A stretch of 64,000 bases of DNA from Vulcanimicrobiota bacterium (lineage in GTDB: Bacteria; Vulcanimicrobiota; Vulcanimicrobiia; Vulcanimicrobiales; Vulcanimicrobiaceae). This document shows positions 10,901 through 58,271 of the stretch, piece after piece. The stretch lies in NCBI GenBank assembly GCA_027459645.1, contig DAIDHQ010000004.1:62001-126000 (forward strand), given 5' to 3'. The notes under the pieces are model-generated. The model did not search any database. It was not told where the DNA came from and saw only the letters and a list, made by a program, of their open reading frames with translations. The position numbers and the translations under genes are program-made. Each line of letters starts with the position of its first letter. The stretch's first letter is position 1.

Positions 10901-11708
10901 TCTCGCCGTTCAAGAAGGCAAGAAGGTCGAAGCGGGCGATCAGCTCAACGAAGGTCCGCTCAACCCGCACGACATCCTACGCATCAAGGGCGAGACCGCG
11001 CTTCAGAACTACATGGTTCAGGAAGTGCAGAAGGTCTACCGCTCGCAAGGCGTCGACATCAACGACAAGCACGTTGAAGTCATCGTTCGCGCGATGATGC
11101 GCAAGGTGAAGATCGTCGAAGGCGGCGACACGCACATGCTTCCGGGGCAGGTCGTCGAAGCGTCGGCCTTCCACGAAGCCAACGACCGTACGCGCGCCGA
11201 GAACCGCGAAGAGGCCACCGCAACTCCGGTGCTGCTCGGCGTCACGAAGGCGTCGCTTGCAACGGAATCGTTCCTCTCCGCCGCGTCGTTCCAAGAGACC
11301 ACGCGCGTCCTCACGGATGCCGCGATCAAGGGCAAGTACGATCCGTTGCTCGGTCTGAAGGAAAACGTCATCATCGGCAAACTGATTCCGGCGGGTACCG
11401 GTATGTCGCGTTATCGCAACATCGACATCCAGCCGCAGGGTCAAGACGTCGACGAAGAAGGGCGTCCGCGCCAGCAGTTCGACTTGGGCGGTTACGCCGG
11501 CATGACTGCCGACGAAGCTGCGCTCGCCGAAGTGATGGGCGGCGGCAACGGCGACGGCATGAGCCGTCTCGTGAGCGCGTACGAACGCAATCGCGAGCCT
11601 TTGACGGTGCAGTATGAAGGCGAATACGACGACCACGTCGCCGTGCACGCCGCGCCGAAGAAGACGCAGTATGACCGCATCAAGGGCATCAACCCCGAGG
11701 ACTTGTAG
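7935..11708 (+). CDS. rpoC: RNA polymerase beta' subunit
   Basis: This is the beta' subunit of the transcribing enzyme, 1257 residues. A TTG start at 7935 is chosen because the family start ([23 protein letters not shown]) is there and AGGAG lies at 7924-7928 with good spacing. The protein shows the N-terminal zinc site (CHCG and CDRC), the catalytic loop [12 protein letters not shown] near 9283, the second zinc cluster ([11 protein letters not shown]) and the bridge-helix/trigger-loop region ([16 protein letters not shown]). rpoB would normally lie immediately upstream but is absent; a lipoprotein gene takes its place. A structured element and a strong terminator follow. Confidence 0.98.
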
Positions 11709-11711
11709 TTC

Positions 11712-11774
11712 TTTTGCCCCGTAGTGTCGTCGCGGGGTGGCTCGATAACCTTCGTGTTAACTGCGCCACCCCGC
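11712..11774 (+). ncRNA. Candidate structured 3' UTR element, rpoC copy
   Basis: Just after the rpoC stop lies TTTTGCCCC, then TAGTGTCGTCG, then a hairpin. The outer stem GCGGGGTGGC (11732-11741) pairs perfectly with GCCACCCCGC (11765-11774). A weak inner stem TAAC/GTTA (11746-11749 with 11756-11759) closes a CTTCGT loop. The same sequence block and two-stem layout recur after tuf (57799-57863), where the stems differ in sequence but still pair. It has no U-tract and the true terminator follows 40 bases later, so it looks like a separate RNA element. Confidence 0.5.
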
Positions 11775-11813
11775 TCCTAACTACGAACCAAAAGTTCCTA
11801 CAAGAAGATAATC

Positions 11814-11847
11814 AAAAAAGCCCGGCAGCATTTTGCCGGGCTTTTTT
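11814..11847. terminator. Bidirectional terminator between rpoC and deaminase
   Basis: A perfect 14-bp stem (AAAAAAGCCCGGCA pairing with its complement, six-base loop 11828-11833) ends in a T-run on the plus strand and, because of the A-run, on the minus strand too. It lies between convergent rpoC and the deaminase gene ending at 11852 and can serve both. Confidence 0.93.
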
Positions 11848-56598: not shown

Positions 56599-57798
<1,200 letters not shown>

Positions 57799-57863
57799 TT
57801 TTCGCCCAATAGCGTCGTTGTGAGGGGGCTCGTGGTCCCCAGTAGACCACGTCACCCCCTCAC
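57799..57863 (+). ncRNA. Candidate structured 3' UTR element, tuf copy
   Basis: Right after the tuf stop the sequence TTTTCGCCC, then TAGCGTCGTTG, then a hairpin repeats the layout seen after rpoC. The outer stem GTGAGGGGG (57820-57828) pairs with CCCCCTCAC (57855-57863). The inner stem CGTGGTC (57831-57837) pairs with GACCACG (57845-57851) around a CCCAGTA loop. Roughly three quarters of the first 33 bases match the rpoC copy, and the stem letters differ yet still pair, which supports RNA structure. No T-run follows. Confidence 0.55.
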
Positions 57864-57924
57864 GCCTCGCTCTGGACGAAAACACCCTCGCTGTGATACG
57901 GTACCTTCCGGACTTCCCGTAACC

Positions 57925-57962: not shown

Positions 57963-58271
57963 ATGGCTAAGCAGAAGATTCGCATTCGTTTGAAGGCGTT
58001 CGATCACAAAGTTTTGGACCAAAGCGCCGAGCGTATCGTCGAGACGGCGAAGCGCACCGGTGCCTTCGTGTCGGGTCCCGTCCCGCTGCCGACCGAGATC
58101 AATCGGTTCTGCGTTCAGCGGTCGACGAACAACGACAAGAAGTCCCGCGAACATTTCGAGATGCGTACGCACAAGCGTCTCATCGATATCCTTCAGGCGT
58201 CGCCAAAGACGATGGATGCGCTGATGCATCTCGACTTGCCGGCCGGCGTCGACATCGAACTCAAAGCCTAA
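57963..58271 (+). CDS. rpsJ: Ribosomal protein S10
   Basis: This 102-residue S10/NusE shows [28 protein letters not shown] and [13 protein letters not shown]. It normally opens the long S10 operon, but here an intrinsic terminator stands 25 bases after its stop and the next gene is an unrelated exported protein on the other strand. It is therefore a single-gene unit with its own promoter. Confidence 0.97.

Follow-up and report, generated by a model that had tools for sequence, protein, structure and literature searches.

In integrons, the attC site is folded from the bottom strand, has variable stems and conserved unpaired bases, and is located at the 3' end of the gene. GTAG REPs are described as palindromes of 20–40 bp with a terminal GTAG that are mobilised by RAYT (PMC3733652). 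Furthermore, sequences of 83–100 nt related to QMITE2, an element of Coxiella burnetii, are reported to occur in Alphaproteobacteria (PMC5896051), and REP elements of Escherichia coli located within 15 nt of stop codons stall ribosomes (work cited in PMC12306157). By behavior, as far as it is described in these sources, GTAG and CGTC REPs (PMC3733652) and QMITE2 (PMC5896051) are the nearest published relatives of the element analyzed here, which was first noticed as two similar blocks within a window of 64,000 nt (the whole stretch of DNA that was analyzed).

The starting copies after rpoC and tuf

The initial annotation placed a block of about 65 bases right after the stop codons of rpoC and tuf. 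An element indeed adjoins each of these stops (TAG 11706–11708 and TAG 57796–57798), but both are longer than proposed because the 3' arm had been missed; the pairing ends give 11711–11795 and 57799–57884. The common opening is genuine, with 25 of the first 33 bases identical between the two copies as counted on the sequence, and in the alignment the likeness extends across the entire ~85 nt. The two copies have the same hairpin, with stems that differ in sequence yet pair, and these compensating stems confirm the shared two-loop fold. Neither copy has a T-run, and rpoC has its own terminator ~20 nt beyond the element, both as had been stated. The features are as follows.

11711..11795, + strand: copy 1, hairpin element, 2 nt past the rpoC stop (model-match coordinates; cmsearch 86.9 bits; fold z −4.8, with 0 of 200 shuffles as good)
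11726..11731, + strand: copy 1, internal loop 1, 5' side GTCGTC (column conservation K-U-C-G-U-Y)
11742..11744, + strand: copy 1, internal loop 2, 5' side TCG (column conservation)
11761..11764, + strand: copy 1, internal loop 2, 3' side CTGC (column conservation)
11775..11779, + strand: copy 1, internal loop 1, 3' side TCCTA (column conservation)
11814..11847 (approximate), no strand assigned: separate intrinsic terminator of rpoC, with A-run, GC stem and T-run (from the sequence and the rpoC 3' flanks of relatives)
57799..57884, + strand: copy 2, hairpin element, abutting the tuf stop and ahead of rpsJ, which starts at 57963 (cmsearch 80.6 bits; fold z −6.8, with 0 of 200 shuffles as good)
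57814..57819, + strand: copy 2, internal loop 1, 5' side GTCGTT (column conservation)

A covariance model built from six sequences, namely the rpoC and tuf copies and the post-tuf copies of four relatives, detects seven strong copies in the genome that contains the window, i.e., five in addition to the starting ones. They are located behind rpoC, tuf, rplL, rpsR, a universal stress protein gene and two others (the gene names were read by eye from the C-termini; the rpoC, tuf, L7/L12 and S4 families were confirmed by a protein-family scan). A plain consensus pattern with mismatches, tried on the same genome, performs at chance level (266 matches, compared with 249 for the reversed control). The covariance-model search that the initial annotation had suggested yielded many further matches, along with compensatory changes in related genomes, and the proposal accordingly withstands its own refutation test. 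That the rpoC and tuf blocks belong to one real element family is near certain.

A family of dispersed two-loop hairpins

Within the bacterial family, the element is present in 45 of 61 genomes (covariance model, E<=0.01), with copy numbers from 0 to at least 74, the latter in the genome G012. A second model (E<=0.001) detects it in 82 of 149 genomes of the phylum (Ca. Eremiobacterota, a name that the NCBI taxonomy directs to Vulcanimicrobiota), where a count of 30 matches stands for at least 30; the matches reach a distant family (f16), with four genomes listed, and many class-level relatives have none. A third model (E<=1e-4) finds it in 31 of 240 Alphaproteobacteria. A tight pattern, which specifies about 24.5 bases and has an estimated 0.02 chance matches, matched 60 stretches in public genomes, mostly from Ca. 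Eremiobacterota, the others coming from Alphaproteobacteria bins, two Rheinheimera genomes, an Arenicella bin, a Burkholderiales bin and a bin labelled as an archaeon. The copies retrieved from genomes other than G012 are the best-scoring among the matches listed. One Arenicella sequence (L240) is a weak match in which the upper stem is longer and loop 1 is kept, suggestive of a subfamily that lacks the standard loop 2.

Pattern scans of viral_contigs gave no matches, and blastn against plasmids and phages gave none or short, weak matches only. There is no Rfam gathering match within the window, and a permissive Rfam scan of six copies produced weak, scattered matches, none near the gathering score, of which two overlap copies. 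We found no description of this hairpin family in the open-access literature. Apparently, this is a so far undescribed family of dispersed folded elements that is present in at least two bacterial phyla.

The architecture is constant, a single hairpin P1-P2-loop1-P3-loop2-P4 with two conserved asymmetric internal loops, a core of ~85 nt and a size of ~110 nt when the copy-specific outer arms are counted. Read as mRNA, it consists of P1, P2, the loop KUCGUY/KCCUM, P3 (9–10 bp), the loop UCR/CKUC, P4 and an apical loop. Almost no variation is seen in the loop columns, whose key positions are identical in 61–62 of 62 copies, and the stems take all pair types. The covariation score is 0.680 vs 0.170 for shuffled alignments among 62 copies and 0.709 vs 0.182 among 59 copies that include those from Proteobacteria; in three alignments, covariation is well beyond both the shuffled and the slid controls. 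Pairing of at least 8 bp between the outer arms of the same copy is found in 54 of 60 copies in G012 and 38 of 62 in the family, compared with 23 and 3, respectively, when the flank of another copy is used as control (one of the 60 G012 copies, L095 9658, is a reverse reading, leaving 59 distinct). Compensation is also apparent over short distances: in two close relatives that share an element after one ribosomal gene (rplQ by eye), 11 of 125 positions differ, and as read from the alignment, 8 of these 11 differences form four fully compensated base pairs.

Four half copies in G012 (L104, L091, L084 and L095), each consisting of the outer arm and the 5' half up to the apical loop, directly precede full copies; they look as if they arose by duplication through slippage at the hairpin apex.

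The distribution at individual sites is patchy. Among the relatives first examined, the post-tuf element is present in G010, G012, G009 and G024 and absent in G001, a member of the same genus, where the rpoC 3' end also has a terminator only and no element. Vertical descent at single sites as the sole history is ruled out by this patchy presence after tuf and rpoC.

Gene ends, selection and the folded strand

The 5' end of the element usually lies 0–15 nt past a stop codon or at the end of a tRNA gene. With gene calls from a home-made gene caller, a sense stop codon lies within −3..16 nt of the core in 45 of the 59 distinct G012 copies and at the mirror position in 5, convergent spacers in G012 hold 34 of 53 copies compared with 192 of 717 background gene ends, and co-directional sites in three sets carry 71 sense and 19 antisense copies (p 3e-8). 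At tRNA ends, a Rheinheimera copy, located between tRNA-Ile and tRNA-Ala, directly follows the CCA, and other copies are located just ahead of tRNA genes. Thus, the shared gene-end element that had been postulated is present, with the same two-loop hairpin at gene ends in related genomes as well. A restriction to essential transcription and translation genes is not supported: in low-copy genomes, 16 of the 47 upstream proteins scanned are of this kind (tuf 5, rpsD 4, rpoC 4, L7/L12 3), whereas in copy-rich G012 the upstream genes are varied housekeeping genes, and there are tRNA neighbors. Stop-codon readthrough was rejected from sequence given that the stop-to-core distances differ among copies, so that there is no shared reading frame.

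Behind tuf, six relatives that lack the element but have a long tuf-rpsJ spacer (G001, G014, G007, G025, G006 and G026) possess an unrelated simple GC hairpin, and nine relatives have no room for one; hence a hairpin at this site is common yet dispensable. In G012, the tuf stop is separated from the element by an unrelated palindrome of roughly 165 nt. A further dispersed repeat, marked by CCTGAGCG...GTCGAAGG motifs, was seen in the genome that contains the window (L046) and after rpoC in G053 (L273), where it is in tandem.

Most species of one genus carry the element only once, behind pstA. Ten genomes were searched and the site was located in nine (not in G112); G072 lacks the element and G108 ends nearby, which leaves seven genomes, in which divergence from the stop codon to the arm end is 4.1%, vs 22.6% at third codon positions and 38% in the flank. 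In this set, the stop codon changed from TGA to TAA along with the facing arm base, and a CTTTT run is kept behind the stem, at the pstA site only, in an otherwise diverged flank. The element is under purifying selection at this site and, given that the genome has no other copy, does something there; where only one copy exists, such selection is more readily explained by a host function than by an element that is purely selfish. In genus g35 (L287–L296), the spacer past the element downstream of pstA is filled with short tandem repeats of the GACGACGGGG type.

These data bear on an alternative in which the element acts in the 3'-UTR of the mRNA, as a sense RNA hairpin that is bound or cut by a protein (an RNase III-like dimer, or as a barrier to an exonuclease) and sets mRNA stability or 3' ends. 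It is mainly position and selection, i.e., the sense orientation and adjacency to stop codons and the constraint after pstA with its retained CTTTT, that keep the mRNA strand in consideration, in addition to the highly expressed housekeeping genes upstream and the GC hairpins that six element-less relatives have behind tuf. Nevertheless, we consider this reading unlikely, given the antisense copies (19 of 90 co-directional sites), the copies ahead of tRNA genes and the properties of the mRNA-strand stems, in which G.U is rarer than A.C and C.U is common. Read as mRNA, the stems of 62 copies (1537 cells) contain 53 A.C vs 14 G.U and 56 C.U vs 2 A.G mismatches; on the complement, A.C and C.U become G.U and G.A, the tolerated mismatches. 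When each column is counted once, the excess of A.C over G.U is not significant (21 vs 11, p 0.11; 21 vs 14, p 0.31), whereas that of C.U over A.G is (12 vs 2 and 14 vs 2). The tolerance of G.U in stems typical of a conserved cis-acting RNA on the mRNA strand was not found, a result that is weaker per column. The mRNA strand also folds worse: in 61 of 62 and 57 of 59 copies, the complement has the more stable fold, with a mean gain of 8 kcal/mol under RNA parameters and 3–4 under DNA parameters. Both mismatch types and stability contradict the assumption, implicit in the initial annotation, of a structured mRNA strand.

On the complement, the apical loop often takes the form C(UNNG)G (29 of 44 four-base loops), and loop 2 reads, by eye, as C-GAM-G over Y-GA-G, i.e., tandem G.A with one bulged base; loop 1, also read by eye, forms a similar module in the opposite orientation. 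The module 5'-CGAMG-3'/5'-YGAG-3' is thus found in both loops, its presence in loop 1 being limited to the copies that have G at that position. Judging from the sequences, we consider it likely that the upstream gene's template strand is the one that is structured, be it as DNA or as RNA, with the qualification that the choice of strand draws in part on the conserved loops themselves. If an RNA is involved, it could be a small or antisense RNA transcribed from the complementary strand, for which the G.U and G.A mismatches, the stable fold and the frequent C(UNNG)G loop would be natural; this is improbable, however, with many copies located inside co-directional operons and no conserved promoter-like flank seen, the flanks varying by copy and diverging by 38% at pstA. 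Finally, that the element is the stem-loop of a family of intrinsic terminators is very improbable, and as a general rule rejected, despite the enrichment at convergent gene ends, the CTTTT at pstA (the only site at which the element has the terminator pattern of a GC hairpin followed by a T-run) and the rpoC of G059, where the element occupies the place at which G010, of the same genus, has a terminator, since TTTT follows the stem in only 2 of 60, 4 of 62 and 5 of 30 copies, near background, rpoC in the window has a terminator besides the element, and termination does not need conserved internal loops.

Possible mode of spread and comparison with known systems

The explanation that we favor is a REP/MITE-like, non-autonomous dispersed hairpin that is spread by some factor and is sometimes kept as a functional gene-end hairpin; we regard its chances as evenly balanced. 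The folded and recognized strand would be the complement of the mRNA, i.e., the template strand. The opposed G.A modules would make the element roughly dyad-symmetric about P3, which is what the binding site of a dimeric protein should look like. Some factor might act on the hairpin and spread copies in the manner of REPs or MITEs, gene ends would be the places where copies land or survive, and certain copies, such as that behind pstA, may have been retained as useful gene-end hairpins.

Several potential movers were searched for. Y1_Tnp (RAYT, PF01797) is found in only 2 of the 61 family genomes (G021 and G044) and is absent from the copy-rich G012, G059, G018, G060, G015 and G047, with a positive E. 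coli control. The integron integrase (TIGR02249) is above cut-off in 3 of 28 genomes, none of them copy-rich, and reverse transcriptase was not found in G012. The element thus does not follow the presence of RAYT, integron integrase or reverse transcriptase in these searches, and none of the three is supported as its mover. Nor did 784 kb of G012 yield a long autonomous version carrying an ORF in its loop. With respect to MITE features, the ends of the element pair but differ from copy to copy, and no target-site duplications were noticed by eye in the flanks of the copies.

A broader formulation, which we consider possible but doubtful, is a cross-phylum class of structure-recognized DNA sites, in which a template-strand hairpin is read by a candidate dimeric protein at its two inverted tandem-G.A loops; its placement at the 3' ends of genes and at tRNA ends would not depend on RAYT, integron integrase or reverse transcriptase. 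The combination of near-invariant loops with freely rewritten stems, common to Eremiobacterota and Proteobacteria, points to one conserved, unnamed recognition partner. If the template strand rather than the mRNA is folded, the kind of molecule to look for changes. Furthermore, the placement at stop codons, the expansion to at least 74 copies in one genome and the single-copy conservation in another genus allow the transition from a mobile repeat to a gene-end signal to be tested directly.

Among the known systems, integron attC resembles the present element in the choice of the folded strand, the variable stems, the conserved unpaired bases and the site at the gene 3' end. In contrast to attC, the present element has no conserved R boxes (AAC...GTT) in its arms, the columns of which are not conserved, and is dispersed singly behind core genes, and the copy-rich genomes lack an integron integrase; identity with attC was rejected on these grounds. 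The ribosome-stalling REPs of E. coli, as cited in PMC12306157, are alike in the distance of at most 15 nt from the stop codon but differ in sequence, length and loops.

QMITE2, as described in PMC5896051, is likewise stem-rich, is located mainly in 3' UTRs and overlaps gene 3' ends by 1–10 bp; it differs in that it contains a GTAG REP, has a full length of 150–190 bp and has direct repeats, the comparison being one of descriptions. GTAG REPs also share some of the behavior seen here: according to PMC3733652, they are small palindromic repeats that mostly follow coding regions and lie between genes in convergent or unidirectional arrangement, in variable number and with compensating changes in the stem. 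However, compared with GTAG REPs as described there, the present element is longer (~85–110 nt), has two conserved internal loops and no terminal tag, and its copy-rich genomes have no Y1_Tnp gene; with a core of ~85 nt and ends that are not conserved, it departs from the REP definition of a 20–40 bp palindrome with terminal GTAG or CGTC. CGTC REPs, as presented in PMC3733652, have a stem of 8–9 bp, a loop of 4–5 bases, a terminal CGTC and a CCA tail, and a two-loop hairpin of ~85 nt is not among the features given for them in that source; yet they are found mostly in Alphaproteobacteria and have no dedicated transposase known, and in that they are similar to the present element.
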